This document shows positions 30,403 through 49,450 of a stretch of 64,000 nt of DNA, in pieces. The stretch lies in NCBI RefSeq assembly GCF_023078455.1, contig NZ_CP095740.1:124001-188000 (forward strand). Reading direction: 5' to 3'. The DNA is from Luteibacter aegosomatis. GTDB taxonomy: Bacteria > Pseudomonadota > Gammaproteobacteria > Xanthomonadales > Rhodanobacteraceae. The notes beneath the pieces were generated by a model, which ran no database searches, had not been told where the DNA came from, and saw only the letters and a program-made list of their open reading frames with translations. Made by a program: the position numbers and the translations under genes. Numbering within the stretch: the stretch's first letter is position 1; the number at the start of each line of letters is the position of its first letter.

Positions 30403-30473
30403 GGCCGCGTCACGCCGTCCCTTTGCCGGGGCAAGCCGGCTCGGCCAGTCGAAATCAGTACAAGGTCAATTGG

Positions 30474-31025
30474 ATGAACCTCAAGGCAATCACCTCCGCC
30501 CTGCTCCTGGCAGGCTTCGCCGCGTCGCCCGCTTTCGCGGAGAGCGGGACGATCAACTTCACCGGCTCCATCGCTAACGTCACCTGCACCATCAATGGCG
30601 GCAGCAGCGCTCCGCTCGTCGCCGATATCGGCAGCATCAGCGCCGGCGACCTCGCCAATGTCGGCGACCGCCAGGGCAAGGCGTCCATCGTGATCACCGT
30701 CGGCGCCCCCGGTGAAACCTCGTGCCCGAACGGCACCAAGGTGTGGGCCCGATTCGATGAAGACCCCACCCTGGTCGACCTCGTGACCGGCATGGTCAAG
30801 GTCACCCCGGGCCCGAACGCCGCAGCCGGCGTCCAGATCCGCCTGTTCAACGAAAACAACGAGGCGATGCACCTCAAGGACGACCAGAAGATCTTCAAGA
30901 AGACGGTGCAGGACAACCAGGCCACCATCATTCACACGGCCTCGTACGAAGCGATCGGCCCGGTCACCGCCGGCACGGCGAATGGCCTGGTCCGCTACAC
31001 GGTCAACTACGAGCCGGCAGGTTAA
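30474..31025 (+). CDS. Type 1-like major fimbrial subunit (pilin)
   Basis: Secreted subunit of 183 aa. The signal peptide is cleaved after residue 22 (SPAFA). The mature start SGTINFTGSIANVTCTING is the donor-strand extension followed by the first Cys; the second Cys is in ETSCPNG. The C-terminus LVRYTVNYEPAG holds the penultimate-Tyr beta-strand recognised by the chaperone. It is probably the main shaft protein of the chaperone-usher fimbria encoded downstream. It is the first gene of the array that ends at 49431. An in-frame upstream ATG at 30345 would put the signal peptide inside the protein and is rejected. Confidence 0.9.
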   Translation: MNLKAITSALLLAGFAASPAFAESGTINFTGSIANVTCTINGGSSAPLVADIGSISAGDLANVGDRQGKASIVITVGAPGETSCPNGTKVWARFDEDPTLVDLVTGMVKVTPGPNAAAGVQIRLFNENNEAMHLKDDQKIFKKTVQDNQATIIHTASYEAIGPVTAGTANGLVRYTVNYEPAG

Positions 31026-31040
31026 AAGCCTCTCATGGAA

Positions 31041-31067
31041 AAGCTGCCGGCCGCTGGCCGGCGGCTT
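31041..31067 (+). promoter_or_regulatory. Hairpin between pilin and chaperone genes
   Basis: AAGCTGCCGGCC (31041-31052) pairs with GGCCGGCGGCTT (31056-31067), one mismatch, loop GCT. It sits 15 bases after the pilin stop and 17 before the chaperone start, without a T-run. Intercistronic hairpins after pilin genes are known to leave more pilin mRNA than assembly-gene mRNA; the same effect is likely here. Confidence 0.55.
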
Positions 31068-31084
31068 CATCAAGGATGTCGATC

Positions 31085-31819
31085 ATGGCTAGAAAGACGG
31101 GCTCGACACGAGCGCGGGCCGCAATCCTGGGACTTTCGCTTTCGGTGGTTTCTACGCTGGCCAGTGCCAGCGTCGTCATGAATGCCACGCGTTACATCTA
31201 TGCGGCGGACGACAAGGAAATTACGGTCAAGGTGTCGAATGTCGGCAAGTCGCCGGTGCTTTCGCAGGCATGGATCGACAGTGGCGATGCAAAAGCTACG
31301 CCGGAAACGGTCAACGTACCTTTCAATCTCACGCCTCCCATTGCGCGCATCGAGGCCGGGAAAGCCCAGACCCTTCGTATCTCGTTCACGGAAGCCGATC
31401 TACCCATCGACCGTGAAAGCCAGTTCTGGATCAACGTCCTCGAGGTTCCACCGAAACCTGCGGAAACCGAAAACGACAGCAATCATATCCAATTGGCCGT
31501 GCGATACCGACTCAAGCTCTTCTATCGCCCCAAAGGGCTCAAAGGCACGCCGGACGACGCAGCAAGTCACCTCGTATGGTCGAGAGTTGGCACGAACGCC
31601 GTCAGTGTTCATAACGACAGCGCTTTTCACGTCACGGTCAACGATGCCTCATTAAAGGCGGATGGAGGTTCACATTCCATCGAACCGTTTGCTCTTGCTC
31701 CCCGTTCCAGCAAGCGCATCGAGGTGGAGAGCTTGTCGTCCGGCACCGAAAAGGCCGACGTGACGTACCAGACCATCAATGACTATGGCGGCTTCGTCGA
31801 ACACTCGACGACCCTCTGA
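31085..31819 (+). CDS. PapD-like fimbrial chaperone
   Basis: Periplasmic chaperone of 244 aa after a signal peptide (LSLSVVSTLASA). Domain 1 has the subunit-anchoring Arg in MNATRYIYAADDKEITVKVSN and the Lys in AGKAQTLRISF. ESQFWINVLEVPPKP and QLAVRYRLKLFYRPKGLKG are the family signature around the F1-G1 strand. It folds pilins in the periplasm and carries them to the usher. ATG 31085 is chosen because AAGGA lies 8 bases upstream; ATG 31076 abuts it. It sits between pilin and usher genes, the standard order. Confidence 0.93.
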   Translation: MARKTGSTRARAAILGLSLSVVSTLASASVVMNATRYIYAADDKEITVKVSNVGKSPVLSQAWIDSGDAKATPETVNVPFNLTPPIARIEAGKAQTLRISFTEADLPIDRESQFWINVLEVPPKPAETENDSNHIQLAVRYRLKLFYRPKGLKGTPDDAASHLVWSRVGTNAVSVHNDSAFHVTVNDASLKADGGSHSIEPFALAPRSSKRIEVESLSSGTEKADVTYQTINDYGGFVEHSTTL

Positions 31820-31867
31820 CACATTACTCCACCGAACGCGGCGAACCCCCGCCGCTGGCGACGCATC

Positions 31868-34513
31868 ATGATCGACACCCCACGGACAATTCGATCCGGA
31901 CGTAGGCTGCTGCCTGTGCAAAAGCGACTGGCGGTTGCGCTATCGCTGGCAATCGCCTGCGTCGAGGAGGCAAACGCCCTTGTCGATCCCGAGCCGGCAC
32001 CGCAGGCGGCCTTCAGCAGCGATTTCCTTCACGTCGCGGGCCCGGTCGACCTCTCTCGATTCGAGCGTGGCAACGTCACCCTTGCGGGGGTTTACCGGCC
32101 CGCCATCCGGGTTAACGATACACCGGTCCCCGGTATGGGCGAAGTCACCTTTCGTCAGGTGCCAGGCATCGAGAGTGCGCAGCCCTGTCTGGATCGCGGC
32201 ATGTTGATCCGGTTCGGCCTCGATCCGGACAAACTCGCCACGCAGGTGGCATCCGGCAACTCCGTGAAGCCGCTCACCGATGAGCCCTTTTGCGGACACA
32301 TCGGCGACTACCTGCCCGGAGCGTCGATCGACTTCGACGATTCCGAGCAGATCCTTCACGTATCGATTCCCCAGGCTTTCATGGCCTCACGGGCACGGGG
32401 ATACGTCAGTCCCGATCTTTGGGACGACGGCGAAACGACGGCCATGCTCAACTACAACGTCAATACGTACCATGTGCGGTCCGGAGAGCGCCGTAGCACG
32501 GCCACGTTTGGAGGCATTCGCGCCGGGGCCAATCTCGGCGGATGGCGTCTCCGCCATACCGGCAACATGAGCCTGCGTGATGGACGGCACCGCTGGCAGA
32601 ACACGCAGACCTACGCACAGCACGACCTCACGGATGCACGGGCGCGACTGACGGTGGGCGATAGTTATACCAGCGGTGAGATCCTGGATAGCGTGCGGCT
32701 GCGCGGCATAGCGATCGCCAGCGATCAACGCATGCTACCGGCCTCCCAACGAGGATACGCACCGACCGTTCGCGGTATCGCGCAGAGCAACGCCCAGGTC
32801 GCCATCCGGCAGAACGGCTACCTCATTCACAGCACCACCGTGGCGCCGGGCGCGTTCGAGATCGACGACCTTTACCCCACCGGGTACGGAAGCGACCTGG
32901 AAGTGACCGTTACCGAGGCCGACGGCCGCACGCGAACCTTCGTCGTGCCCTATACCTCCGTGCCGCAGATGTTGCGCGAAGGAGCGTACCGATTCGCCGT
33001 CGCCGCGGGCCAAGTCGTGGATAACAGCGTGGCGGATACGCCGTTCGTATTCCAGGCTACCTACCAGCGTGGTCTCACGACGAACACCACGCTCTACGCC
33101 GGGACGACGGCCTCGAACAGCTATGGGTCGGGCCTGCTTGGCGGCGCCATCAACCTTCCGTTCGGTGCGGTATCGCTCGATGTGACGGCGTCGCGCGCCG
33201 CGTTCCGGTATGGCGGAGTGCGGCGAGGCGTGAGCACCCGGCTTCGCTACAACCGCTCGGTGCTTTCCACGGGTACGAACTTCGGAGTGGCGGCCTACCG
33301 CTTCTCGACGCGAGATTACCTGGGTGTCACGGACGCCGCTCGCATCCGTTCGTATCTGAAGTATGGCGGCCTTGATCCGCAAGCTGGCGGCGAACGCGGC
33401 CGATTCGAGGCGACCGTCGCACAGACATTGGGGCAGGGGCAGCTCTCGCTGACCGGCTCCATCAGCGACTACTGGGGCGCGCGGGGTCGCGACTCGGCCT
33501 TCTCGGTGGCCTACGGTGGTGGCTGGCGTTCCATGTCTTACAACGTCTCCGTCCAGCGTGCCAGGTTGGGCAACGTATTGAGTGCCATCCCGGGCAGGCA
33601 AAGCGGCGAGGTCGACACCACGGTTTATGTGTCTCTTTCGATACCGCTGGGTCATGCGCCCGGGGCGCCCAGCCTGAATACTACGCATACCCAGGGGAGC
33701 CGAGCCGGAAGCAGCACGCTCGCCTCATTGAACGGATATGCCGACCGCGATGGCACCCTGTCCTACAACGTCACGGCCAGTCGCTCGCGGCAGGATGGTC
33801 ATGGCAGCAACGCCGGTAGCGGAAGCCTCGCCTATCGTGCCCATGCCGGTAGCTACCGCATCGGCGCGGCTACCTTGAGCGGCGGGGGGCAGCAGTACTC
33901 CGTCGGTGCGGCGGGCGCCCTCGTCGTACATCGCGATGGCCTCACCCTGTCGCAGGAGCTCGGCGAAACCAACGCCATCATCCATGCGCCGGGCGCCGCA
34001 GGCGCTCGCGTGGAAAGCACGGCCGGGGTACGGCTCGACCGCCATGGCAATGCGGTCGTACGCGGACTGCTCCCCTACCAGATCAATACCATCGCCATCG
34101 ATCCGCGCGGCGCGTCCCACGATGTCGAACTCGAGAGCACGTCGGAGTCGGTCGCTCCCCGGGCGGGCGCCTTCGCCCGACTCGAATACAAGACATCGCA
34201 GGCCCAGTCCCTGCTCATTCATGCCACGAAGCCCGACGGACAAGCGCTTCCTTTCGGAGCATCCGTGTACGACGCCGCCGGGCAAGCGATAGGGGTCGTG
34301 GGACAGGGCAGCAAGATCTTCACGCGTGGCGCCAAGGCAGGGTCGCGCCTGACCGTCAGCTGGGGAACGAGCGAAGTCGATCGCTGTGAGATCGACGTCC
34401 CCGCGTCGATCGATTCGCTAGGCCTGCACGGCATGCATCGTTCCTTCAAGGCGCCATGCGCTAACGACTCGATGGTGTCGGCTCCGCCCATAAAAGCGGC
34501 CATCGCCGCTTGA
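31868..34513 (+). CDS. Outer-membrane fimbrial usher (FimD/PapC-like)
   Basis: Usher of 881 aa. After the signal region comes the N-terminal chaperone-binding domain (FSSDFLHVAGPVDLSRFERGN, usually FNxxFL). A 24-strand barrel with plug follows (RGIAIASDQRMLPASQRGYAPTVRGIAQSNAQVAIRQNGYLIHSTTVAPGAFEIDDL), then the C-terminal domains (LPFGASVYDAAGQAIGVVGQGSKIFTRG) and a final Cys pair (RCEID...KAPCAN). It secretes and polymerises pilins across the outer membrane. It is complete and of normal length. The trbB gene starts 70 bases downstream. Confidence 0.94.
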   Translation: MIDTPRTIRSGRRLLPVQKRLAVALSLAIACVEEANALVDPEPAPQAAFSSDFLHVAGPVDLSRFERGNVTLAGVYRPAIRVNDTPVPGMGEVTFRQVPGIESAQPCLDRGMLIRFGLDPDKLATQVASGNSVKPLTDEPFCGHIGDYLPGASIDFDDSEQILHVSIPQAFMASRARGYVSPDLWDDGETTAMLNYNVNTYHVRSGERRSTATFGGIRAGANLGGWRLRHTGNMSLRDGRHRWQNTQTYAQHDLTDARARLTVGDSYTSGEILDSVRLRGIAIASDQRMLPASQRGYAPTVRGIAQSNAQVAIRQNGYLIHSTTVAPGAFEIDDLYPTGYGSDLEVTVTEADGRTRTFVVPYTSVPQMLREGAYRFAVAAGQVVDNSVADTPFVFQATYQRGLTTNTTLYAGTTASNSYGSGLLGGAINLPFGAVSLDVTASRAAFRYGGVRRGVSTRLRYNRSVLSTGTNFGVAAYRFSTRDYLGVTDAARIRSYLKYGGLDPQAGGERGRFEATVAQTLGQGQLSLTGSISDYWGARGRDSAFSVAYGGGWRSMSYNVSVQRARLGNVLSAIPGRQSGEVDTTVYVSLSIPLGHAPGAPSLNTTHTQGSRAGSSTLASLNGYADRDGTLSYNVTASRSRQDGHGSNAGSGSLAYRAHAGSYRIGAATLSGGGQQYSVGAAGALVVHRDGLTLSQELGETNAIIHAPGAAGARVESTAGVRLDRHGNAVVRGLLPYQINTIAIDPRGASHDVELESTSESVAPRAGAFARLEYKTSQAQSLLIHATKPDGQALPFGASVYDAAGQAIGVVGQGSKIFTRGAKAGSRLTVSWGTSEVDRCEIDVPASIDSLGLHGMHRSFKAPCANDSMVSAPPIKAAIAA

Positions 34514-34521
34514 ATGACCGT

Positions 34522-34543
34522 GGCAGGCCTGGACAGGCCTGCC
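34522..34543 (+). promoter_or_regulatory. Hairpin at the usher/trbB junction
   Basis: GGCAGGCCTG and CAGGCCTGCC are perfect inverted copies separated by two bases, so a stem of about eight pairs with a small loop can form. It lies 8 bases after the usher stop and before the trbB ribosome-binding site (AGGAGG at 34568-34573). No T-run follows, so some transcription probably continues into the trb genes. Confidence 0.45.
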
Positions 34544-34583
34544 CATGTGAACGACGTGGCGACGACCAGGAGGGGCGCGCCAC

Positions 34584-35570
34584 GTGAGGAACTCCCGCAT
34601 TATGGAATCCCAGTTCAGTGGCGGCCTGTCGGCCGTAACGCGCGAACGCGCGCGCGACAAGCTGCGCCGAGACCTCGGCGACGTGTTCCTCGAAGCTTTC
34701 AATGACCCGAAAACGGTCGAAATCATGCTCAACGCCGACCACCGCCTTTGGCAGGAGCGATTGGGCGAAGGCATGCGCTGCATCGGCACGATGCGCCCAA
34801 GCCAGTCCGAAGCCGTCATCAAGACCACGGCCGGCTATTACGGCAAGGAAATCACGCGCTCGAATCCGGTGCTCGAAACCGAGTTTCCGCTCGACGGATC
34901 GCGCTTCGCCGCCCAATTGCCGCCCATCGTCAGCGCACCGACCTTCGCGCTCCGAAAAAAGGCGATCTCCATCTTCAGTCTGGAGGACTATGTCGCCTCA
35001 GAGGTCATGACGGAAGCGCAGCGACGAGTCATCGTGGATGCGATTCGCGCGCATCGAAATATTCTGGTGATCGGTGGGACCGGTTCCGGTAAGACAACAT
35101 TGGTCAACGCCATTATTCGCGGAATGGTCGAGACGGATGCCAGAGACCGCGTCTTTATCATCGAGGACACCGGTGAGATCCAGTGCGCGGCTGATAATTT
35201 CGTGCAGTACAGGACGTCTTGCGAAGTGAGCATGACTCAATTGCTACGGACGACGTTGCGCATGCGTCCGGATCGAATCCTGGTCGGCGAAGTGCGTGGG
35301 CCGGAAGCGCTCGACTTATTGATGGCCTGGAATACCGGACACGAGGGAGGCGCAGCGACCCTGCATGCCAATGATGCGCGCGCTGGTCTATCCCGATTAT
35401 CTCTACTGGTGAGCATGCATCGAGATGCCCCCAATCCGATTGAACCACTGATTGCCGAGGCAGTGCACGTGATCGTCCACATCTCGCGAACGCCTCATGG
35501 CCGTAGAGTCCAGGAGGTTCTCGCAGTAGACGGGTATGGAAAATCTGGATTTATAACTAAAAGGCTGTAG
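34584..35570 (+). CDS. trbB: Trb-type secretion ATPase TrbB (VirB11 family)
   Basis: Hexameric cytoplasmic ATPase of 328 aa. The N-terminal domain (KTVEIMLNADHRLWQERLGEG...RFAAQLPPIVSAPTFALRKK) and the RecA-like domain carry Walker A GGTGSGKTT (from Gly164), the Asp box FIIEDTGEIQC, Walker B RPDRILVGEVRGPEALDLL and the His box GHEGGAATLHAND. It powers T4SS assembly and transfer. GTG 34584 has AGGAGG ten bases upstream; ATG 34602 is an alternative. It is the first gene of a trbB-L run in RP4 order directly after the usher. Confidence 0.93.
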   Translation: MRNSRIMESQFSGGLSAVTRERARDKLRRDLGDVFLEAFNDPKTVEIMLNADHRLWQERLGEGMRCIGTMRPSQSEAVIKTTAGYYGKEITRSNPVLETEFPLDGSRFAAQLPPIVSAPTFALRKKAISIFSLEDYVASEVMTEAQRRVIVDAIRAHRNILVIGGTGSGKTTLVNAIIRGMVETDARDRVFIIEDTGEIQCAADNFVQYRTSCEVSMTQLLRTTLRMRPDRILVGEVRGPEALDLLMAWNTGHEGGAATLHANDARAGLSRLSLLVSMHRDAPNPIEPLIAEAVHVIVHISRTPHGRRVQEVLAVDGYGKSGFITKRL

Positions 35571-35583
35571 TCGGCCGAGGTCT

Positions 35584-35919
35584 ATGAGAGATATGAATAT
35601 AAAAATGGCAATCATCGTCGCTCTAATTTCGGGCGTAATGTTCCCTTCGCTCGCGCTCGCAGAAGGACTCCCCTTCCAAACCAATGCCGACCTGCTTGAG
35701 AAGGCGATGTCGGGTCCGATCGCGACCATCATCTCGCTTGTAGGAATCGTGGGTTGCGGTGCGATGCTTATTTTTGGTGGCGAACTGAGTGGGTTTGCGC
35801 GAACCATGGTGTTTCTGGTGCTCGTCATATCGGTCATCGTCCAAGCAGGCGCCATCGTAAGAGTTTTGCAAGGCGAGACGGGTGGATCCCCCAATGTCAC
35901 CGTCACCACAATGAGGTAG
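35584..35919 (+). CDS. trbC: TrbC/VirB2-like pilin of the T4SS
   Basis: Small protein of 111 aa with a signal peptide (ALISGVMFPSLALA) and two membrane helices (about 46-65 and 71-92), the usual form of VirB2/TrbC prepilins. In RP4 TrbC is cut and circularised into the conjugative pilus; the TraF-type peptidase needed for this is not in the window. Base composition is clearly lower in GC than the fimbrial genes. It follows trbB by 13 bases and precedes trbD by 5. Confidence 0.85.
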   Translation: MRDMNIKMAIIVALISGVMFPSLALAEGLPFQTNADLLEKAMSGPIATIISLVGIVGCGAMLIFGGELSGFARTMVFLVLVISVIVQAGAIVRVLQGETGGSPNVTVTTMR

Positions 35920-35924
35920 CCGAC

Positions 35925-36236
35925 GTGGGTATACGTACTGTTCCTATTCGTCGCGCAGGTAACCGAGACAATTTAGTGCTCGGAGGAGATCGTGAGCTCG
36001 TCCTGTTTACCGGACTCTTGGCCGGCGCACTAATATTTTCTGCGCACGATCTAAAGGCTGCCGTCTTTGGTGTGACCCTATGGGTCATTGGTCTTCAGAT
36101 ATTTCGAATCATGGCCAAGGCCGACCCGAAAATGCGCTACGTGTACCTGCGTCAGCGTCGTTATCGAAAATTCTACCCAGCACGCTCGACGCCATTCCGT
36201 GAAAACGGCCCAGCCGAGCAGGCGCAATTCCGATGA
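35925..36236 (+). CDS. trbD: TrbD (VirB3-like) inner-membrane T4SS protein
   Basis: Protein of 103 aa beginning with GTG. IRTVPIRRAGNRDNLVLGGDRELVLFTGLLAGALIF is the TrbD/VirB3 start: a short arginine-rich cytoplasmic tail with the motif NxxxLGGDRELV, then two membrane helices, then AKADPKMRYVYLRQRRYRKFYPARSTPF. It anchors the assembly near the VirB4 ATPase. Its stop overlaps the trbE start as ATGA at 36233-36236. Start chosen by family alignment. Confidence 0.88.
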   Translation: MGIRTVPIRRAGNRDNLVLGGDRELVLFTGLLAGALIFSAHDLKAAVFGVTLWVIGLQIFRIMAKADPKMRYVYLRQRRYRKFYPARSTPFRENGPAEQAQFR

Positions 36237-38767
36237 CACTCGTATGGTTCATCTGTGGCATGGCGGCGATCGTTGCCGTGCTGGTCATCATCCTGTTCAT
36301 CACGATTCGCAAGCTCGATAACGAACCCCGGCTGGATTTCCGTCGCCCGCACGGACAGGCGGCCGCGGATCTCCTGAACTACGCTGCCGTAGTCGCGGAT
36401 GGTGTCATCGTCTGCAAGAACGGCGCCTTCATGGCGGCGTGGATGTACGAAGGCGACGATGCGGCGAGCAGCACCGACGAGCAGCGTGAAACCACGTCCA
36501 TGCGTATCAACCAGGCGCTTGCACGGCTGGGCAACGGTTGGATGTTGCACGTGGATGCGGTTCGTCGGCCGGCGAGTGAGTACCCGGATGCCGCCAGCTC
36601 GCACTTCCCCGACCGTGTATCGGCGGCCATGGACGAGGAACGACGCCGGCTGTTCCAGATGCTGGGGACGACTTACGAGGGCTACATGGTCATGACCCTC
36701 ACCTGGTACCCGCCGCAGATCGCCCAGCGCCGCTTCGTCGAAATGATGTTCGACGACGAAGCCGAAGTGGCCGGCAAGACGGAGCAGACGACCAACCTCA
36801 TCGCCGAGTTCCAGCGCGAGTGCACAAGCTTCGAGAACGGCCTTTCCGGCGTGCTCAAGATGACGCGTCTTTGCGCGCACAGCAAACTGACGGAATACGG
36901 CCGTCGGTTGGTCTATGACGACTTCCTGCGTTGGCTCCAGTATTGCGTGACGGGCGTGGACCATCCCGTGGTGCTGCCGGAGAACCCGGTGTACCTGGAT
37001 GCCCTGATTGGTGGACAGGATATCTGGACCGGCGTCGCGCCGCGCATCGGACGTCGCTTCATCCAGGTGGTGGCCGTGGAAGGCTTCCCACTGGAGTCAT
37101 ATCCTGGGATTTTGGCATCGCTCGCCGATCTACCCAGCCAATATCGCTGGTCGAATCGCTTCATCTTCATGGATCCCCATGAGGCGTTGCGGCAGATGGA
37201 AAAGTTCCGCAAGAAGTGGCGCCAGAAGGTGCGCGGCTTCTTCGATCAGATTTTCCAGACCAGCAGCGGCTCGGTGAACTACGACGCCCTGTCGATGATG
37301 AAGGATGCCGAAGCGGCCATCGCGGAAATCAACAGCGGGCTGGTGGCCCAGGGTTTCTACACCAGCGTCGTCATCGTCTCCGACGACGATCGCGTGCGAC
37401 TGGACCGATCCGTGCGCCAGATCGAGAAGGCCATCAATGCGCGCGGGTTCGCCGCGCGTATCGAATCGGTCAACACCATGGATGCCCTGCTCGGAAGTTT
37501 CCCCGGGCATGGTGTGGAGAACGTGCGTCGTCCCCAGCTCAATACCCTCAACCTCGCCGACCTTCTGCCCACGGCCACGATTTGGACGGGGGAGCCGGAT
37601 GCTCCCTGCCCGATGTATCCGCCGCGGTCGCCGCCGCTCATGCATTGCGTTACCCAGGGAGCGACGCCGTTTCGTCTCAACCTGCACGTGAACGACCTGG
37701 GTCATACGTTCATCTTTGGGCCGACGGGCGCGGGCAAGTCGACCCATCTTGGAATCCTTGCGGCACAGTTCCGCCGGTATCCCGGCATGTCCCTCTACTG
37801 CTTCGACAAGGGGCGTTCCCTTTATCCGCTCGTGAAGGCATGCGGTGGCTTGCATTTCGACGTAGGTGGTGACGACGATGAGCTGGCCTTCTGTCCGCTT
37901 CAGTTCCTCGAGACGAAGTCGGACCGTGCCTGGGCCATGGAGTGGATCGATTCCATGCTTGCGCTGAACGGCGTGCAGACCACGCCCGCGCAGCGGAACG
38001 AGATCGGAAACGCCATCGTCTCGATGCACCAGTCGGGAGCGACCACGCTGTCCGAATTCGTACTGATGATCCAGGAGGAGTCGATCCGCGAGGCTTTGAA
38101 GGTTTATACCGCCGATGGAGCCATGGGGCATCTCCTCGACGCGAGTGTCGACGGCTTGAGGCTTTCCGACTTCGCGGTGTTCGAGATCGAAGACCTCATG
38201 ACCATGGGCGACCGATTCGTGCTGCCGGTACTGCTTTACCTTTTCCGGCGTATCGAGACGTCGCTGAAGGGCCAGCCCGCGGCCATCATCCTCGACGAAG
38301 CCTGGCTGATGCTCGGCCACCCGGTGTTCCGGGCGAAGATCCGTGAATGGCTCAAGGTGTTGCGCAAGGCCAACTGCCTGGTGGTCATGGCGACGCAGGG
38401 CCTGTCGGATGCGGCGAACTCCGGCATCCTCGACGTGATCGTGGAATCCACGGCCACGAAGATCTTCCTGCCCAACCCCTTCGCCAGGGACGAGGATGCG
38501 GCCGCGCTCTATCGGCGGATGGGTCTGAATGCCCGGCAGATCGAGATCCTCGCCACTGCCGTTCAGAAGCGGCATTACTACTACGTGTCCGACAAGGGCC
38601 GTCGCCTCTACGACCTGGCCTTGGGTCCGCTGGCGTTGGCGTTCATCGGTAACGCCGACAAGGAATCCATCGCGGCGATCCGGGCGCTCGAAGCTCGCCA
38701 CGGTGAAGGGTGGGTCGATGAGTGGCTGGCGGGCAAGGGCCTGCGCCTGGCCGACTATGGAGCATGA
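36233..38767 (+). CDS. trbE: TrbE (VirB4 family) T4SS ATPase
   Basis: Large ATPase of 844 aa. An N-terminal membrane helix (about 5-24, GMAAIVAVLVIILFITI) and a CagE/VirB4 N-domain (36-450) precede the motor domain with Walker A GPTGAGKST (from Gly496) and Walker B AIILDEAW (Asp688), plus VMATQGLSDAANSG. The length is normal for TrbE. It energises substrate translocation and pilus biogenesis. It is translationally coupled to trbD upstream, and its stop overlaps or abuts the start of trbF. Confidence 0.94.
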   Translation: MTLVWFICGMAAIVAVLVIILFITIRKLDNEPRLDFRRPHGQAAADLLNYAAVVADGVIVCKNGAFMAAWMYEGDDAASSTDEQRETTSMRINQALARLGNGWMLHVDAVRRPASEYPDAASSHFPDRVSAAMDEERRRLFQMLGTTYEGYMVMTLTWYPPQIAQRRFVEMMFDDEAEVAGKTEQTTNLIAEFQRECTSFENGLSGVLKMTRLCAHSKLTEYGRRLVYDDFLRWLQYCVTGVDHPVVLPENPVYLDALIGGQDIWTGVAPRIGRRFIQVVAVEGFPLESYPGILASLADLPSQYRWSNRFIFMDPHEALRQMEKFRKKWRQKVRGFFDQIFQTSSGSVNYDALSMMKDAEAAIAEINSGLVAQGFYTSVVIVSDDDRVRLDRSVRQIEKAINARGFAARIESVNTMDALLGSFPGHGVENVRRPQLNTLNLADLLPTATIWTGEPDAPCPMYPPRSPPLMHCVTQGATPFRLNLHVNDLGHTFIFGPTGAGKSTHLGILAAQFRRYPGMSLYCFDKGRSLYPLVKACGGLHFDVGGDDDELAFCPLQFLETKSDRAWAMEWIDSMLALNGVQTTPAQRNEIGNAIVSMHQSGATTLSEFVLMIQEESIREALKVYTADGAMGHLLDASVDGLRLSDFAVFEIEDLMTMGDRFVLPVLLYLFRRIETSLKGQPAAIILDEAWLMLGHPVFRAKIREWLKVLRKANCLVVMATQGLSDAANSGILDVIVESTATKIFLPNPFARDEDAAALYRRMGLNARQIEILATAVQKRHYYYVSDKGRRLYDLALGPLALAFIGNADKESIAAIRALEARHGEGWVDEWLAGKGLRLADYGA

Positions 38768-38769
38768 CG

Positions 38770-39486: not shown

Positions 39487-39496
39487 AGGCTCTCTC

Positions 39497-40794: not shown

Positions 40795-40799
40795 CCACC

Positions 40800-42038: not shown

Positions 42039-42089
42039 CGAAGGGTTTCGCCTAGCCTCGAGGTGGCTAGTTATCCAGACGGAGGATCG

Positions 42090-42896: not shown

Positions 42897-42904
42897 TTTC
42901 CCCG

Positions 42905-42925
42905 GGAGCGGCGCATGGCCGCTCC
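42905..42925 (+). promoter_or_regulatory. Hairpin between trbJ and trbL
   Basis: GGAGCGGC (42905-42912) and GCCGCTCC (42918-42925) form a perfect 8-bp stem with loop GCATG, 8 bases after the trbJ stop. No T-run follows. It is one of several junction hairpins in this array. Confidence 0.4.
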
Positions 42926-42960
42926 TTCGTCCGCGAAAAAGACCAGTGTTTCCCACATCA

Positions 42961-45900
42961 ATGACTTTCATGCTTCGTGTCACGACGGTGCTTTTCTTGT
43001 GCGCCTTTGCCGGTGATGCCTCGGCCGGCGTCGCGGCGGACGACCTCGTCGAGGGCATAGGAAAGCTGTTCCGGGAGCACCCGAATGCGGGGTTCATCCT
43101 GGAGGCGGCGGAACGCCTGTTCTGGACCCTGGCGACCATCAGCCTCGTATGGACGATGGGGATGCAGATCCTGCGACAGGACATCGGCGAAGTGCTCATG
43201 GAGCTGACCCGGTTCGTCGTCGTGACGGGGATCTTCTTCTGGATACTTGACACTGCGTCGAGGGGAAAGGGTGATGACGGGTCCATCCTCAACATCGTCA
43301 ATTCATTTTTCGAGATGTCGAACGGATCGCCCGATGCCACCGCTTTCATCGATGATGCGAACTCGATCGCCCGGGTCGGTTTGCAGGTCTATACCGATGT
43401 GATCTATGCCACGGGATCGGCGCCCGATGCGGACAAGATCATCCTCAATTTGCTTGGCATCGGGACGATGATCGTCCTCTGTCTCATGGCGGCGCAGTTT
43501 CTCTTGTTGCTCGTTGCGGCCTGGATGATGGGGTACGCGGGTATCTTCCTTCTCGGATTCGGGGGTGCCCGCTGGACGTCGCCCGTGGCCATCCATTTCT
43601 ACAAGCATGTCTTCGCCATCGGGATGTGCATGCTCGTGCTGGGCTTCATCGGTCATCAGGGATATCCGCTGCTCGATGAGTTGGCCAATGCGTCGGCAGC
43701 CACGCGGTCGGGCATTTCAGGCTATACGAACCAGGGGCTGATGCTCTGCGTTTCGGTCCTGTTTCTCGTACTTTCGCTGAAAGTGCCACAGATCCTCTAT
43801 TCGGTCGTCACGGGGTCCCAGGTCGGCATCTACGTCGGCAGCGCGAGCATGGTGGGTTCGGCGATCGGCGCGGGCGGCGCAGCCGCACTGGCGTCCATGA
43901 ACACGTGGTCCAGCCCAGTCGATCAGACGTCCCGTCACGTCGACTCCCCGAGCCGGGTATCGGTAAGGGCGGACTCCGTCATGGAAGCGGTTCATCGATC
44001 GGCGATCGGAATCGACGGCCCTAGCGAGCCCTTCAACACGCGGGTGTCGAACTACGGCACCACGGTCGGCGATCGGCAGGCCAATCAGATCGCCGGGAAC
44101 GCGACGTTCGATCGCGGCCCGTCGTTCGGGGCTTCCCTGGGCGCGTCCACATCGTCAGGAGAACCGATGCGCCTCGCCGGGGATGCGTCGTCGCGTTTTT
44201 CCCATGAGCCGTATGCCGAAGCAAAGCGGCTGTCGTCCCCTATGAGCGAAACCGAGCCTGGGCCCGACTATGCGGCCGAGATGTCCGCGATCATGGAGTC
44301 ACGGCAGACCCACGGCTCGTTGGATTCGGCTCATCCGAGTGGAGGCGGTCACATGGCCACCTCGGGGGGCAATACGTTGCCGGGCGCGGGGAGTGCGCAC
44401 GCCGTTCGCGTTGCCGACGACGGGGAGCGGGTGATCTTGCCCGGTGAGTTCCTTGACGTCGAAGGAGCGCAAGGGGATGCGCGTGTCGGTTCGCAGACGG
44501 CGATATCCCTCGGTCCGCAAGCTTCCTCGGGCGCGGTAAACCATGCGGATGCCGATCTGCGAACGCACGGGCACCTTGAAGCCGGGGCTCCGGAGGTCCC
44601 TGAGCTCTCCATCGCCGCGGACGGCACAACCCTTGATCGCAGGGAGGTGAGCCAGACGCGGATGCACGATGTTTCCGTCAAGGCCTCGGTTGAAGCATCT
44701 CGGGAAGACTCGTCCGTCCGCGCCTTGGAAGGGGCCCGCGCGCATGAAACCTCCGCGGTAGTCACGGAAAGGGGTGCGCCAGTCGACGTCGTTCCGGGAC
44801 GGGTGGGGCCCACGAGCGCCCAGGCGGGCGAGGCGTCGTCGGGTGTCCGTTCGTCGGAGCACGTCGGCGGAAGCTCGGTTGGCGACGCTTCGACCCATGG
44901 GTCGCTCACGCACTCACATGTATTCGACCAGGACAGAGAAGCAGCAGGATTCGCGGGTCTCCCGTCAGACGATTCCGTCGGAATAGCGCAAGCAGAGCGG
45001 GCCGGCAACACGCCCGCCCACGCATCGAGCCGCGGCGTCGGTGGCTTGCCGGATGGCGTCACGGACGGCGTCGCCCCGTCCGTTCAACGGGCCTCGGGTA
45101 CGCCCGTCGATGCGTCGAATCATGGGGCGGATATGACTTCGTCGGGTTCGACGACGCCTTTCCCGTCGATGTCTTCGGACGGCAGCCCTGAAAAGATCTC
45201 CGTCCCGGATGCGTCGGTCGACGACGTCGGCCGAACCCGGACCCGTGGCGCGGTAGAGGTTCCCGTGCCCGGGTCGATCCCGGAGCGTGCCGAGGTTTCC
45301 TCGGTCGAGGCGAACGGAATGCACGGTACGCCGACCCAGGACTTCGGCGCCGCGTCCGACTCGGAACCTGGCGGGCTATTCGCGATGAAGGCATCCGTTG
45401 GACATTCGTTCGCCGGGATCGACGAGAAGGAAGGCACTCCGGCCCGCGCCATCGTGGAGCCGGTTCGGCAGGACGATGGAGCGGAAACGACCGGATCGGT
45501 GGCCGACGAGATGCCGAAAGGCGTCGACGAACATACGTCACTTGAAGTGGTGAACCGTGGGAGCGCTCGAGGCAGCGACGCAAGGCACGGTTCGAGCGCA
45601 ACGTCGTCAGCCTTGTCGACGACGATCGACTCAGCCTTGACCGGGCCTGCGGACATCGCCAACGTCGAGATCGGGCAGTTGTCTCGCGACGCATCGATCG
45701 ACGAGAAGGAAGGCACTCCGGCCCACGCCATCGTGGAGTCGGTTCGGCACGACGATGGGGCGGAAACGATCGGATCGGTGGCCGACGAGATGTCGAAAGG
45801 CGTCGACGAACATACGTCACTTGAAGTGGTGAACCGTGGGAGCGCTCGAAGCAGCGACGCAAGGCACGGTTCGAACGCAACGTCGTCAGCCTTGTCGGCG

Positions 45901-46293
45901 ACGATCGACTCAGCCTTGACCGGGTCTGCAGACATCGCCAACGTCGAGATCGGGCAGTTGTCTCGCGACGCATCGACATCGTCTTTGATCGAGAAGATCG
46001 AGAACGATCAAGACACGACCAGGCGCGAGACGCTGCTCGGCGCCGCCGACGTGGACGCCCCCGATGTCGAGTCCTGTACCACCGCGCAGGATCGCATCCG
46101 GGCCTCGACTTACGGAACAGCGGACAAGCCTTCCACGGCAAGTCACGTCCATCAGCATTCGTCCGACGCGTCGACGGAAGATCCTCGTGTGACGAACGTT
46201 CCCGCGAATCGAGATTGGAAGCGACACGATGAGCCCGATCCGGGCGATCCGCCCATGCTAAGCGACGACCCCGACGCGGACCCGCCCACATGA
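42961..46293 (+). CDS. trbL: TrbL (VirB6-like) T4SS protein with long repeat-bearing C-terminal extension
   Basis: Polytopic T4SS protein of 1110 aa, about twice the usual TrbL length (450-550). Residues 1-330 are TrbL: signal-like segment, then about six membrane helices including LLGIGTMIVLCLMAAQFLLLLVAAWMMGYAGIFLLGFGGARW and VPQILYSVVTGSQVGIYVG. Residues about 340-1110 are hydrophilic, low in complexity and rich in Ser, Asp, Glu, Gly, Ala and Thr, with almost no aromatic residues, and contain two copies of a 93-residue repeat. Such extended VirB6 tails occur in Rickettsiales and may be exposed or cleaved. ATG 42961 or GTG 42946 may be the start. The stop overlaps the next start (ATGA). Confidence 0.88.
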   Translation: MTFMLRVTTVLFLCAFAGDASAGVAADDLVEGIGKLFREHPNAGFILEAAERLFWTLATISLVWTMGMQILRQDIGEVLMELTRFVVVTGIFFWILDTASRGKGDDGSILNIVNSFFEMSNGSPDATAFIDDANSIARVGLQVYTDVIYATGSAPDADKIILNLLGIGTMIVLCLMAAQFLLLLVAAWMMGYAGIFLLGFGGARWTSPVAIHFYKHVFAIGMCMLVLGFIGHQGYPLLDELANASAATRSGISGYTNQGLMLCVSVLFLVLSLKVPQILYSVVTGSQVGIYVGSASMVGSAIGAGGAAALASMNTWSSPVDQTSRHVDSPSRVSVRADSVMEAVHRSAIGIDGPSEPFNTRVSNYGTTVGDRQANQIAGNATFDRGPSFGASLGASTSSGEPMRLAGDASSRFSHEPYAEAKRLSSPMSETEPGPDYAAEMSAIMESRQTHGSLDSAHPSGGGHMATSGGNTLPGAGSAHAVRVADDGERVILPGEFLDVEGAQGDARVGSQTAISLGPQASSGAVNHADADLRTHGHLEAGAPEVPELSIAADGTTLDRREVSQTRMHDVSVKASVEASREDSSVRALEGARAHETSAVVTERGAPVDVVPGRVGPTSAQAGEASSGVRSSEHVGGSSVGDASTHGSLTHSHVFDQDREAAGFAGLPSDDSVGIAQAERAGNTPAHASSRGVGGLPDGVTDGVAPSVQRASGTPVDASNHGADMTSSGSTTPFPSMSSDGSPEKISVPDASVDDVGRTRTRGAVEVPVPGSIPERAEVSSVEANGMHGTPTQDFGAASDSEPGGLFAMKASVGHSFAGIDEKEGTPARAIVEPVRQDDGAETTGSVADEMPKGVDEHTSLEVVNRGSARGSDARHGSSATSSALSTTIDSALTGPADIANVEIGQLSRDASIDEKEGTPAHAIVESVRHDDGAETIGSVADEMSKGVDEHTSLEVVNRGSARSSDARHGSNATSSALSATIDSALTGSADIANVEIGQLSRDASTSSLIEKIENDQDTTRRETLLGAADVDAPDVESCTTAQDRIRASTYGTADKPSTASHVHQHSSDASTEDPRVTNVPANRDWKRHDEPDPGDPPMLSDDPDADPPT
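45418..45975 (+). repeat. Two tandem 279-bp (93-codon) repeats in trbL
   Basis: Copy 1 spans 45418-45696 and copy 2 spans 45697-45975; both begin IDEKEGTPA and end QLSRDAS. The copies differ at only a handful of bases and stay in frame, which points to a recent duplication. Part of the repeat reads VADEMxKGVDEHTSLEVVN. Confidence 0.9.
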
Positions 46294-46766
46294 TCGACAT
46301 GCTCCCCGACATCCCGCCCGAAAAGCACGACATGGTGGCCTGCTCCCTGGGCGCCGCGCTCGCTTACGACATTCCCGCGAACATCCTTCTCGCCATCGCC
46401 GAGCAGGAATCCGGTCGTCCCGGACAGTGGGTTCGCAATCGCAATGGCACCTACGACGTCGGTGCCCTGCAGTTCAACACCTCTTACCTCCGGGAACTGT
46501 CGCGTTACGGCATTAAGGCTGCCGATGTGGCCGCCACGGGCTGTTACCCCTATCAACTGGCCGCGTGGCGCGTTCGTGGTCACTTGCGCGACGACAAGGG
46601 CGACCTGTGGACGCGCGCCGCCAATTACCACTCCCGCACGCCACGGTTCAACGCGCGCTATCGCGCGTCCTTGATCCATCGAGCCTCGTATTGGTCGGCG
46701 TGGCTCGAGGCGCATTTCCCTACCCGCGACATCCTCGCGGGCGAACCCGCTCAAGCAAGGAAATAG
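46290..46766 (+). CDS. T4SS-associated lytic transglycosylase (VirB1/TrbN-like)
   Basis: Murein hydrolase of 158 aa. The SLT core is clear: catalytic Glu in AIAEQESGRPGQW, then GTYDVGALQFNTSYL and a later AANYHSRTPRFNARYRASLI. VirB1 and RP4 TrbN open peptidoglycan for T4SS assembly. Position after trbL fits TrbN (trbM is absent). No signal peptide is obvious. The start overlaps the trbL stop by four bases (ATGA), so it belongs to the same operon. Confidence 0.88.
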   Translation: MIDMLPDIPPEKHDMVACSLGAALAYDIPANILLAIAEQESGRPGQWVRNRNGTYDVGALQFNTSYLRELSRYGIKAADVAATGCYPYQLAAWRVRGHLRDDKGDLWTRAANYHSRTPRFNARYRASLIHRASYWSAWLEAHFPTRDILAGEPAQARK

Positions 46767-46771
46767 CTTTC

Positions 46772-47746
46772 ATGAATAACGAACGATTGCGCCGCTGGCT
46801 GGCGTGTGGACTGGTGATGTCGGCGGGTATCGCCACGAAGTCCATGGCGGCACCGGGCTGCACCCAGGTCAACCTGGCCACCTATCAGATCGGCCAGACC
46901 ACCTACGTCGACGTTCGCAGCAGCGATCCGGAAGGGAAGTTGCTACGTGACGGGGAGGCTAAGGGGGAAGGCAAGCTCCTGTTGAGGTGCAACGAAGGAA
47001 GGGTAACGTTTCGAGGCCGCTGGCAAAATGCGCAAACGACCGATTTGCTTCCGTTGACCATCGGTGGCGAGCCGGCCGGTGTCGGACTCAAGCTGTTCCT
47101 TCGTGAAGGCGACGGCGAGCGCAGGCCCTTTCCGCACGACTTCGCCCGCACGATGACGAAAGGCGAAGAAGTCCGCAGCGACATGGATTCGGTCGGCTAT
47201 GAGCTCTATCGCACGACCGGCCGGGTCCACTTCGGCAAGCTCGACAGCAAGGCCGTGGCGCAATCGAGCGTCGACAAGGCAGGTGGCGGCCTGGTCGTGT
47301 TCCGTTCCATGCAGGTTTACGACCTGATCCTTCGCCGCGAGGCATGCGCCATCGTCGCGGACGACCTCAACCAGAGGATCGAGCTGCCGCCCTATAACCT
47401 GAGCAACTTCGCCACGGCCGATCGCGCCACGCCGTGGGAGGCCTTCCGCCTTCGCGTGGACCACTGTGTCGATCCCGTGGGCCTGATCGCGCGCGTCACG
47501 TTCGGTACCCGGGCCGACGCCGATGCGCTTCACGCCGACTGGTTCTCGTTGGTGGGGCCGAAGAACGTCGCGATGGAACTGGGCACGAAAGACTTCAACA
47601 CCATCGCTCCGGGCGTACCCGTGGAAATGAACGCGCTGGGCACGGGCGATGCCTATCAGTTCCACGTGCGTTTGCGTGAGACGAGGCCTACCGTCGTGGG
47701 AGGGGAATTCTCACGTCTGGTCAGGGTGCAGGTGGACTACCTCTGA
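46772..47746 (+). CDS. Two-domain fimbrial tip adhesin-like protein, paralog 1
   Basis: Secreted protein of 324 aa with a signal peptide (LVMSAGIATKSMAA). Mature domain 1 has one Cys pair (PGCTQV, LLRCNEG) and LLPLTIGGEPAGVGLKLF. Domain 2 looks like a fimbrial pilin domain: Cys in EACAIVADDLNQRIELPPYN, ATPWEAFRLRVDHC, GVPVEMNALGTGDAYQFHVRLRET and a final RLVRVQVDYL with penultimate Tyr. The two-domain plan is that of chaperone-usher tip adhesins. The gene lies 5 bases after the transglycosylase gene, at the far end of the trb run, and matches the fimbrial genes at the near end. The ligand is unknown. Confidence 0.72.
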   Translation: MNNERLRRWLACGLVMSAGIATKSMAAPGCTQVNLATYQIGQTTYVDVRSSDPEGKLLRDGEAKGEGKLLLRCNEGRVTFRGRWQNAQTTDLLPLTIGGEPAGVGLKLFLREGDGERRPFPHDFARTMTKGEEVRSDMDSVGYELYRTTGRVHFGKLDSKAVAQSSVDKAGGGLVVFRSMQVYDLILRREACAIVADDLNQRIELPPYNLSNFATADRATPWEAFRLRVDHCVDPVGLIARVTFGTRADADALHADWFSLVGPKNVAMELGTKDFNTIAPGVPVEMNALGTGDAYQFHVRLRETRPTVVGGEFSRLVRVQVDYL

Positions 47747-47775
47747 AACCTGCCTGAGTATGCTGGGTCGCACTG

Positions 47776-47794
47776 CCCGCGAGGTCTTCGCGGG
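47776..47794 (+). promoter_or_regulatory. Hairpin between the two adhesin-like genes
   Basis: CCCGCGA (47776-47782) and TCGCGGG (47788-47794) form a perfect 7-bp stem with loop GGTCT in the 72-base gap between the paralogs. No T-run follows. AAGGAG at 47803-47808 serves the second gene. Confidence 0.4.
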
Positions 47795-47818
47795 CTCCCG
47801 CCAAGGAGTGCGATCCCT

Positions 47819-48835
47819 ATGCCAACCCCCTTATCACGGAAGTTCGTCGTCATCGTGACCCTGATGTGTTCCACGCACGCATGCGACGTGTACGCGAAGC
47901 TCGGTTGCAGTTCGGTCGGCAAGGTGAGTTATCGGATCGGTACGGAATACCAGTATTCGGGTATCTCGATTCGGGGCGATGGACAGCCCGGCCAATCGGT
48001 TGCGTCGGGGCAGGGCGTTCGCTCGGGATCCACGGTGGTGTTTCAGTGCTTGAAGGGCGTCGTCACGTTCGATCACGAATGGGTACCGCTTTTCCCCGGC
48101 GCCGTCCGTCCGCTCACCATCGGCGGGTCGCCGTCGGGCCTGGGGCTTCGGGCATCGGTGAAACGCGGTGGATCGTTGCATTTTTCGTATCCGGGACAGA
48201 CCCAGCAAAGCCTCGAAAGCATCTGGATTCCCATTCCCAGCATCACCACGCCGGTGGATGTCGCCAGCGAGTCGGTGCACTACGACATCGTGCGTACCTC
48301 GGGCCCGCTCCGATTCGGTCGCATCGATGGCGGCCTCGTCGCGCGCTCGTTCGGCACGAATTCGAAAGGTGGCGGCCGCCTTCACTACGAAGACGTCGAG
48401 ATGGAGAGCATCGCCATCAACCGCCCGCCCTGCGGCATCGTGGTCGGAGACCTCAACCAGACGGTGAAGATGGGCGATTACCGGTCGGATCAATTCGCGA
48501 ACGCCGACAAGGCGACACCCTGGGTGCCGTTTCATTTCCGGGTGGCGGAGTGCCCCGCCCCGTCGGGGCTGATTGCGCGTTTCACCTTCGGTGTGAAGGG
48601 TGATGGCGCCTCGTCCCATGCGCAATGGTTTTCGCTGCCCGGTGGTCCTGGGGGCGTGGCGATGCAACTGGGCACATCCGATTTCCAGAACATCGCACCC
48701 GGCGTACCCGTGTCGCTTTCCGCGTTGGGCGATGGTCAGCGATATACCTTCCACGGCCGCCTCCGGCAGATCGGGTCCCCCGTTCGGGGTGGCCGATTTT
48801 CCCGAAATCTACGTCTAATGGTGGAATACCTATGA
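47819..48835 (+). CDS. Two-domain fimbrial tip adhesin-like protein, paralog 2
   Basis: Secreted protein of 338 aa, parallel to the gene upstream along its whole length: LGCSSV and VFQCLKG in domain 1, RPLTIGGSPSGLGLRA, YDIVRTSGPLRFGRIDGGLVARS, PPCGIVVGDLNQTVKMGDY, ATPWVPFHFRVAEC and the ending RNLRLMVEYL. Conservation is strongest in the pilin-like domain and weaker in domain 1, as expected if the two recognise different ligands. The signal peptide ends near THACDVYA. The stop overlaps the next start (ATGA at 48832-48835). Confidence 0.72.
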   Translation: MPTPLSRKFVVIVTLMCSTHACDVYAKLGCSSVGKVSYRIGTEYQYSGISIRGDGQPGQSVASGQGVRSGSTVVFQCLKGVVTFDHEWVPLFPGAVRPLTIGGSPSGLGLRASVKRGGSLHFSYPGQTQQSLESIWIPIPSITTPVDVASESVHYDIVRTSGPLRFGRIDGGLVARSFGTNSKGGGRLHYEDVEMESIAINRPPCGIVVGDLNQTVKMGDYRSDQFANADKATPWVPFHFRVAECPAPSGLIARFTFGVKGDGASSHAQWFSLPGGPGGVAMQLGTSDFQNIAPGVPVSLSALGDGQRYTFHGRLRQIGSPVRGGRFSRNLRLMVEYL

Positions 48836-49431
48836 ATCATCGATGGGGCGTCGTCGTCCTGCTGGCGGCCATGGCCGAAGGGTGCGCTCCCGTGACGGGC
48901 ATCGGCGCGCGTGGAGGCGACGCCGATGTGCCGGTGAAGCACATCGACGTGGTCTCGCTCCTGCCGCTGCATCCCGCGGCGGATGCGCGCCTCAGGGACG
49001 ACACGGTGACCTTCGCCGATACGTTGGCACGCCGACTTCGCGCGTCCCGTTTCGATTCGGAGGCTCTCGACGTCAGCGGACTGGTGCGGCGACACGACCT
49101 GCCGGTGGAAATACGCGTCCGCGACGACGGCACCGTGCGGCATCTCGATGGGGTCTTGCCGGAAAAGGCCTTGCTCGCCCTTCCGGCCGACCGCGAAGGA
49201 CATCGCCTGGTGCTGTTCCCGGCCCGGCTGGCGACCGACCGTCGCACCGGTGTCGTCGTGGGGACGGTGCATTGGCGGCTCGACCCCCCGGCCGGCGGCG
49301 CTTCGCTGGCGAGGGGCATCCTCCGCTACACGGTCGACGCGAGGGGATTTCCCGGCCGGCGGCTGGCCGGCGAGCTGGTGGCCGAACTTCAGCGCCAGGG
49401 CGTGCGTGGGGGCGAGGGCGCGCTAGACTAA
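48832..49431 (+). CDS. Exported protein of unknown function, possible lipoprotein
   Basis: Protein of 199 aa that I do not recognise. The N-terminus (WGVVVLLAAMAEGCAPVTG) is a signal with Cys18 in an imperfect lipobox (AEGC). The body is charged and mixed alpha/beta (SLLPLHPAADARLRDDTVTFADTLARRLRAS, LVLFPARLATDRRTGVVVGTVHWRL), without Cys or membrane segments. Its start overlaps the stop of the adhesin-like gene, so it is translated as part of that array. It could be a periplasmic or outer-membrane accessory of the fimbria or T4SS. Confidence 0.6.
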   Translation: MNHRWGVVVLLAAMAEGCAPVTGIGARGGDADVPVKHIDVVSLLPLHPAADARLRDDTVTFADTLARRLRASRFDSEALDVSGLVRRHDLPVEIRVRDDGTVRHLDGVLPEKALLALPADREGHRLVLFPARLATDRRTGVVVGTVHWRLDPPAGGASLARGILRYTVDARGFPGRRLAGELVAELQRQGVRGGEGALD

Positions 49432-49450
49432 GGCGCTTTCCCGCTATCAG

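Follow-up and report, generated by a model that had tools for sequence, protein, structure and literature searches.

Gene content of the array

The 64,000-nucleotide stretch of the Luteibacter aegosomatis genome analysed here (contig NZ_CP095740.1, positions 124,001 to 188,000; referred to as the window) contains a gene array in which a P-type (Trb) type IV secretion system (T4SS) gene set lies among the genes of a chaperone-usher fimbria. The window belongs to a 4.76-Mb single contig, and the array occupies its positions 30474-49431 as a single run on the + strand, with several neighbouring genes overlapping. The order is pilin, chaperone, usher, trbB, C, D, E, F, G, a gene in the trbH position, trbI, J, L, trbN, two adhesins and a lipoprotein-like open reading frame (ORF). 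An earlier note on this DNA had described the order from pilin to trbN on one strand, with a 70-base gap between usher and trbB; the ORFs and the Pfam and NCBIfam profiles agree with it. The note had also ended the array with two adhesin-like proteins. Both exist, but the last ORF is a separate lipoprotein-like protein.

The fimbrial part begins with a major pilin (30474-31025; PF00419), a PapD-like periplasmic chaperone (31076-31819; PapD_N 143 bits, PapD_C 53 bits) and an outer-membrane usher (31868-34513; PF00577, 508 bits). At the other end lie the two-domain fimbrial tip adhesin 1 (46772-47746; C-terminal PF00419) and its relative adhesin 2 (47819-48835; PF00419 in the C-terminal part). 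Pilin, PapD-like chaperone, usher and adhesin of a chaperone-usher fimbria are hence all present. The lipoprotein-like protein (48832-49431), which has a lipobox-like start and no Pfam or NCBIfam family, overlaps the stop of adhesin 2. Its relatives were found at L032, L034, L037, L053 and the trb-less site L212.

The T4SS set opens with trbB for the VirB11 ATPase (34584-35570; Pfam match T2SSE), followed by trbC for the VirB2 pilin (35584-35919; PF04956), trbD for VirB3 (35925-36236, probable GTG start; NCBIfam TrbD 151 bits, cut-off 60), trbE for the VirB4 ATPase (36233-38767; PF03135), trbF for VirB8 (38764-39486; VirB8 family, 157 bits) and trbG for VirB9 (39497-40390; CagX family, 172 bits). 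The lipoprotein-like product in the trbH position (40387-40794) has no Pfam or NCBIfam match and is placed by position and conservation only. Then follow trbI for VirB10 (40800-42038, probable ATG start; PF03743, 197 bits), trbJ for VirB5 (42090-42896; NCBIfam TrbJ 67 bits, far under the cut-off of 286), trbL for VirB6 with a long variable tail (42946-46293; PF04610, and NCBIfam P-type TrbL 136 bits, cut-off 128.85) and trbN for a VirB1-type lytic transglycosylase (46290-46766; NCBIfam TrbN 269 bits, cut-off 246). Homologues of TrbB, C, D, E, F, G, I, J, L and N thus stand in the order of a P-type system.

Only 5 bases separate trbN from the likely ATG of adhesin 1. A scan of positions 30150-50050 gave zero sigma-70-like promoter sites, against a mean of 4.4 in shuffled sequence, and 22 terminator-like sites, against a shuffled mean of 13.3, both poorly informative in a GC-rich genome; no terminator-like site on the + strand falls within the usher-trbB or the trbN-adhesin gap.

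An AlphaFold2 model of adhesin 1 (mean predicted local distance difference test score 88.6; 23 homologues in the alignment) had two-domain tip adhesins as its closest PDB structures, CupB6 first (E 1.8e-10) and then LpfD and FimH among the first ten. Taken by halves, the model resembles receptor-binding domains in its N-terminal part, with a TM-score of 0.67 to MrkD1P (by target length), and pilin domains in its C-terminal part, with TM-scores of up to 0.82 to type 1 pilus subunits. A profile search of PDB sequences was concordant for the C-terminal domain (FimF, 3.3e-11). Whole-chain TM-scores were only about 0.3-0.5, suggesting that the two domains are arranged differently from those of the PDB matches. 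The relatives examined carry one adhesin, and both adhesin queries match the same single gene there; the exception is L053, where adhesins 1 and 2 match separate places.

Upstream the array adjoins a gene that reads in translation as a major facilitator superfamily (MFS) transporter, and downstream a DUF2058 gene and an epimerase gene, both assigned by Pfam.

Distribution and conserved order

Of 197 genomes of the family searched for TrbE, 24 had a match at E 1e-60 or better. Ten of these carry a near relative (75-100% identity), namely seven Luteibacter including the present one, G019 and G094 of a second genus, and Dyella flava (G172). The remaining 14 reach 40-43% identity at best, and no usher match was found near trb of this kind in the six loci fetched. 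An order-wide survey of 398 genomes added one further near relative (G452), located on a 44-kb contig. Plasmid relatives are abundant, with 222 records at 60-80% identity. Fimbrial genes stood beside trb in four of the best 80 of 257 named genome loci, three from Luteibacter and one from Stenotrophomonas rhizophila GN_RF2.1, although many of the 80 are short contigs, on which a lack of fimbrial genes is partly uninformative. In the genus of S. rhizophila, trb of the near kind occurs in 1 of 91 genomes.

As a check, the earlier note had proposed a search for this gene order in other Rhodanobacteraceae, and the order does recur. Pilin-chaperone-usher-trb-trbN-adhesin is kept in all six other Luteibacter with trb (L032-L037) and in G019 (L038). 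The array at L039 is similar, with a different usher and an additional chaperone gene in front of trbB, and in S. rhizophila the order is trb-trbN-adhesin-traF-pilin-chaperone-usher. An adhesin follows trbN in each composite locus examined, S. rhizophila included. Usher and trbB are 65-110 bases apart in 8/8 loci where they adjoin, and trbN and adhesin 2-9 bases apart in the four loci where the longest-ORF starts allow a reading. Each of the nine composite loci listed has a single trbC and a single trbJ, S. rhizophila being left out as its stretch begins inside trbE. Within Luteibacter, an usher of at least 63% identity was present in 7/7 genomes with trb and in 0/12 without, at most four usher candidates being scored per genome.

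Beside the fimbrial genes of S. rhizophila (L146 1370-4123) and G019 (L149 2424-5729), large ORFs read in translation as autotransporter-like. Response-regulator-like ORFs, possible regulators, were likewise read upstream of the composite in G094 (L151 6822-7469) and S. rhizophila (L096 5365-6051).

Deletion scars at trb-less sites

The DUF2058 gene that marks the site is present in 18/18 other Luteibacter genomes searched. The site was examined in 12 trb-less genomes as 11-12-kb stretches (for G010, another 15 kb); the trb-less G470 was left out of this comparison. Remains of the composite were found at 10 of the 12 sites. At nine of these, an intact pilin gene is followed by the first ~35 chaperone codons up to the motif TR[YF][VI] and then one T, a left end that corresponds to window base ~31199 (L204 8500-8990, L205 8780-9030, L206 2750-3240, L208 6800-7190, L209 2692-3200, L210 2698-3200, L211 4740-5060, L212 7200-7560 and L213 5870-6385). 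This left end is identical to about a base in all nine, and four kinds of right end occur: mid-trbN (G152), the trbN end (G178, G076), the adhesin C-terminal domain (G112, G033, G133, G143, G196) and the adhesin end (G161), with few shared bases at the joints. G010 (L207) has a tenth deletion with a different left end, where trbN (from about residue 8) and the adhesin come after an intact PBP1C gene; the 20 kb examined there contain no pilin, chaperone, usher or MFS gene. In G186, 375 bases separate the MFS gene from the DUF2058 gene, and the site in G062 shows the DUF2058 gene only.

On this comparison, the nine joints and that of G010 are deletion scars: the composite was formerly at the site and has been lost as a block in these lineages. 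The earlier note had named contiguous fimbrial genes without trb, with insertion scars, as the case that would speak against it. This case was looked for, and the scars are deletions of the chaperone-usher-trb block; the idea that trb recently entered a fimbrial operon was therefore rejected. Inspection of the joints, short of a systematic search, revealed no insertion-sequence or recombinase ORF. Between the MFS gene and the leftover pilin of G143 (L210 4115-5253), two ORFs resemble in translation an insertion-sequence transposase pair.

The leftover pilins of the nine sites have pairwise ratios of non-synonymous to synonymous substitution (dN/dS) of 0.13-0.68 (36 pairs), and the adhesin leftovers of five genomes 0.12-0.48 (nine computable of ten pairs). 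With these values, plain pseudogenes are a poor simple fit for the adhesin leftovers. In a neutral simulation with substitutions only, the share of runs in which a 99-codon frame stayed free of stops was 7.6% for 0.5 substitutions per site and 3.4% for 0.8. Together this leaves two readings: recent deletions that hit the same bases repeatedly, or continuing selection on the leftovers.

Phylogeny of ushers and TrbE

In the usher tree, the ushers of the seven Luteibacter and G019 form one clade (100/100), whereas that of G094 groups with ushers lacking such trb beside them (100/99), and that of S. rhizophila stands apart on a long branch with unsure placement. The composite label changes three times on the drawn tree, of which the firm branches require at least two. 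In the TrbE tree, the ten Rhodanobacteraceae loci of the near kind lie on one side of a 100/99 branch and the plasmid-side sequences on the other, with S. rhizophila at their base. Read together, the two trees show two or three usher lineages standing beside related trb sets. Fimbrial genes may have been swapped next to a resident trb set, or else the pairing may have arisen repeatedly.

The fimbrial operon and the trb module could be chance neighbours that work separately. A near trb relative stands alone in Dyella flava, many relatives have ushers of 38-45% identity but lack this trb, joint loss is explicable by physical linkage alone, and a functional link is suggested by sequence comparison. 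Set against this are the order kept across two genera, the pairing of related trb with two or three usher lineages, the constant place of the adhesin behind trbN, the short spacing, and the all-or-none presence in 19 Luteibacter genomes. Given the shared order and joint presence, we consider chance adjacency improbable. Fimbria and T4SS look like one conserved unit on this evidence. The claim of the earlier note that fimbria and secretion channel work together is supported in this respect only, by the order in Luteibacter and G019, by related trb sets beside other usher lineages in G094 and S. rhizophila, and by joint presence in seven and joint absence in twelve of the 19 Luteibacter; its secretion part is not supported as stated. 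The note had further read the location of pilin and adhesins at opposite ends of trb as a sign of cooperation; the trb module may simply sit between the usher and adhesin genes of a fimbrial operon.

Divergence from plasmid-borne Trb sets

The Trb set resembles plasmid sets that we take to be of the IncP/PromA kind, from the likeness of plasmid names and gene order. The array shares with IncP/PromA Trb (Tra2) the order from trbB to trbL, trbN, and a TrbE that is 65-72% identical to many plasmid-side homologues. It differs in being chromosomal, in that relaxase, coupling protein, TraF, TrbK and TrbM were not found in the array, and in the sequences of TrbC, TrbJ and TrbL.

The C-terminal motif FFGRGAE, presumably the TraF site in TrbC, is present in 9/11 plasmid-side sequences and in 0/10 chromosomal ones, the window's among them. 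The TrbC of S. rhizophila, a genome with TraF, retains a partly similar stretch at this position. The centre of TrbJ carries P-x-x-YIWD in 11/11 plasmid-side sequences and is different in the 10 chromosomal ones. TrbL has 1115 amino acids here, with a partly repeated variable tail, compared with 522-625 amino acids on the plasmid side (n=11); it measures 708-1115 amino acids in eight composite loci and 895 in D. flava. In translation, the TrbL tail (42946-46293) contains two near-identical copies of ~90 residues starting IDEKEGTPA. TrbL of G019 is split over two consecutive ORFs (L038 13374-17876), a possible frameshift or split gene.

Identities were compared for 21 pairs from Luteibacter and 170 from the plasmid side, the latter drawn from 28 loci and having a trbE identity of 78-91%; the pairs are not independent and the comparison is descriptive only. 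Better conserved in Luteibacter are trbB, E, F, G and trbN (medians for Luteibacter and plasmid side: trbE 88.7/83.0, trbB 87.9/79.7, trbG 82.3/73.8), whereas trbC (59.8/75.7), trbJ (41.1/65.9) and trbL (45.8/65.6) are much less conserved. Variable as well in Luteibacter are the products of the pilin (median 54.9), chaperone (57.9), usher (65.2), adhesin (47.0) and trbH-position (51.2) genes. The variable parts of the T4SS are the presumed surface-exposed ones, a pattern that would fit an adhesion pilus better than secretion.

Coupling proteins, relaxases and other secretion systems

No trbK, trbM, traF, traG/coupling-protein or relaxase gene was found in the array. The coupling protein and relaxase that accompany the mating-pair set of a conjugation system are consequently missing there, as are the TraF peptidase, which was looked for in the array only, and the cyclisation-fit TrbC C-terminus of an RP4-type system. 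A PF03432 relaxase above cut-off was found in 0/7 genomes searched for this family. One sub-threshold match in the present genome (C1:1.683 Mb) lies ~20 kb upstream of another trb set, which has a coupling protein of its own (L046, G000:C1:1703214-1722956; TrbE ~40% identical). A conjugative element or its decaying remnant might still be considered from the 65-72% identity of trbE to plasmid-side homologues and from the near relative G452, whose 44-kb contig resembles a conjugative plasmid with relaxase, TraG, TraF and partition genes, as read from translation with no family check. With no PF03432 relaxase above cut-off in the seven genomes searched, none of traG, traF, trbK and trbM in the array, much of the core better conserved than in plasmid pairs, and the locus at one chromosomal site across the genus, this explanation is highly improbable.

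VirD4 (PF02534) is encoded at least once in 13 of 14 genomes checked, never within the composite. The nine Rhodanobacteraceae composite genomes checked and S. rhizophila have a second VirB4, presumed to be of the X-T4SS type, XVIPCD effectors and at least one VirD4; three composite-less Luteibacter genomes checked likewise have VirD4 and effectors. Coupling-protein matches numbered three in G010, two in G033 and three in G062, all trb-less (counts only). The sole VirD4 of G193 lies inside a run of XVIPCD effector genes. An orphan VirD4 type of 64-93% mutual identity occurs in 5/7 Luteibacter composite genomes (G047, G123, G089, G170, G101) and not in the present genome or G193. A dedicated orphan coupling protein was accordingly rejected, no single type being common to all composite genomes. 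Dyella flava, which has the near trb set, gave zero PF02534 matches, and its single PF10412 match falls inside trbB. Orphan VirD4 genes away from any VirB4 lie in the present genome at L154 (G000:C1:3640000-3650000) and L155 (G000:C1:4695500-4705500). Near the L155 gene is a 715-residue frame that carries an XVIPCD effector domain, and small lipoprotein-like ORFs separate the two.

These data bear on contact-dependent delivery, in which the fimbria would hold the target while the Trb channel delivers proteins, using a VirD4 borrowed from the X-T4SS or orphan genes, or a two-step route like that of Bordetella Ptl. The X-T4SS-type VirB4, effectors and VirD4 of the composite genomes, the retention of both ATPases with a highly conserved core, and the ability of T4SSs without VirD4 to secrete, mentioned in the available text of a recent review (PMC12857230), would agree with such a role. 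The VirD4 and effectors are already explained by the X-T4SS, as composite-less Luteibacter and the location of the G193 gene illustrate; the array encodes no coupling protein or recognised effector; and searches with two families gave no coupling protein for Dyella flava, which retains this trb. Delivery therefore seems a rather unlikely role to us, and the division of roles in the earlier note, with a secreting channel and a fimbria for contact, is not supported as stated, given the missing coupling protein and relaxase in the array, the missing coupling protein in Dyella flava and the variable presumed surface parts.

Proposed function

The reading we prefer, with a probability of about one half, is that the locus serves adhesion and encodes a domesticated T4SS without coupling protein, which would build a variable pilus next to a chaperone-usher fimbria. 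In it we infer the plasmid-to-chromosome direction, co-transcription, pilus formation and the adhesion function. An IncP/PromA-like trb mating-pair-formation module would have become chromosomal without DNA-processing and coupling genes and come to lie inside a chaperone-usher operon, after the usher gene and before the adhesin genes. From this single array the cell would then make two surface fibres, a chaperone-usher fimbria with a two-domain tip adhesin and a T4SS pilus of TrbC with a TrbJ tip. The latter would be built by the TrbB and TrbE ATPases through a TrbG/H/I core, TrbN opening the cell wall. As the set has no coupling protein of its own, what it chiefly makes is probably the pilus, a view also put forward for Bartonella Trw. 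The two fibres together may allow staged, target-specific attachment, and the comparisons suggest that the cell uses both together to hold other cells or surfaces.

Several observations weigh against this reading. The trb set of Dyella flava has no adjoining fimbrial genes, the ushers lying elsewhere in the genome (same contig as L056 for trb), and the trb part can persist without the fimbria. In S. rhizophila, trbN and adhesin are 57 bases apart, and traF stands between adhesin and pilin. One deletion removes both parts, so that all-or-none presence is weaker evidence for function than it appears, and the pilin retained without usher in nine genomes indicates that the parts are not strictly obligate partners. 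The medians of trbD (75.7/84.5) and trbI (59.9/64.6) are somewhat under plasmid level too, and the identity pairs lack independence. In RP4, TraF, C-terminal cleavage and TrbC cyclisation are linked, according to the available text of PMC12037004; RP4-like processing into a pilus might be doubtful for a TrbC with neither the plasmid motif nor TraF. Finally, a VirD4 encoded elsewhere in the genome could act as coupling protein in trans.

A more tentative proposal, to which we give clearly less weight than to the adhesion pilus, is a hybrid surface machine encoded in one operon and working as a single device, where the fimbria and the remodelled TrbJ/TrbC pilus would recognise a target cell and the apparatus would then act. 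Its pairing would have been made or remade more than once, because related trb sets adjoin two or three usher lineages in two bacterial families.

Comparison with described systems

Bartonella Trw is the closest parallel to the proposed adhesion pilus. According to the available sections of PMC2883598, Trw is a conjugation-derived chromosomal T4SS, collinear with a plasmid set, lacking the coupling protein TrwB and having variable TrwL and TrwJ (VirB2 and VirB5 homologues); it has an adhesion role, and mutants lose adhesion. It is also listed among VirD4-less systems together with Ptl, Brucella VirB and ComB (available text of PMC12857230). The Luteibacter set likewise lacks a coupling protein and apparently derives from a conjugation system, with the direction of descent again inferred, and its VirB2 and VirB5 homologues have diversified beyond the core in the descriptive identity comparison. 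The two differ in kin (IncW R388 for Trw, IncP/PromA Trb for Luteibacter), in the amplification of Trw genes, as opposed to the single trbC and trbJ of the composite loci examined, and in the joining of the Luteibacter set to a chaperone-usher fimbria with tip adhesins. We favour the view that the Luteibacter locus works like Trw in outline, outside the Trw lineage. The shared missing coupling protein and variable VirB2/VirB5 argue for adhesion over both delivery and mere neighbourhood.

A machine for DNA uptake or release without coupling protein, in the manner of Helicobacter ComB, is an alternative of very low probability. T4SSs with such functions exist, but ComB is without VirB5 and VirB11 (both from the available text of PMC12857230), whereas the Luteibacter set has both, with a highly variable VirB5.

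The X-T4SS, described in Luteibacter (PMC6536674, as far as its text was available), shares with the array the host family and a VirB-type set. It is a separate locus of the same genome (C1:3.384 Mb, L047), with 24% identity in the aligned VirB4 segment, and the composite contains no VirD4 (PF02534) or XVIPCD (PF20410) match, these lying elsewhere in the genome. Compared with type 1, CupB and Lpf fimbriae, the array has the same pilin, PapD-like chaperone, usher and adhesin domains predicted to fold as in CupB6, LpfD and FimH. It differs in the whole T4SS gene set between usher and adhesin, and by the model in the arrangement of the adhesin domains.

T4SSs and chaperone-usher fimbriae are usually treated apart. 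No described fimbria-trb composite was recognisable by title or abstract start among the open-licence papers listed, and the words 'usher' and 'fimbria' are absent from the available main text of the 2025 T4SS review PMC12857230 and from that of PMC6536674. If the composite is stable, it would add a further T4SS without coupling protein and with variable surface parts beside Bartonella Trw, from other plasmid kin. The locus makes it testable in environmental strains what role a T4SS without coupling protein has, and whether the pilus alone is worth keeping.

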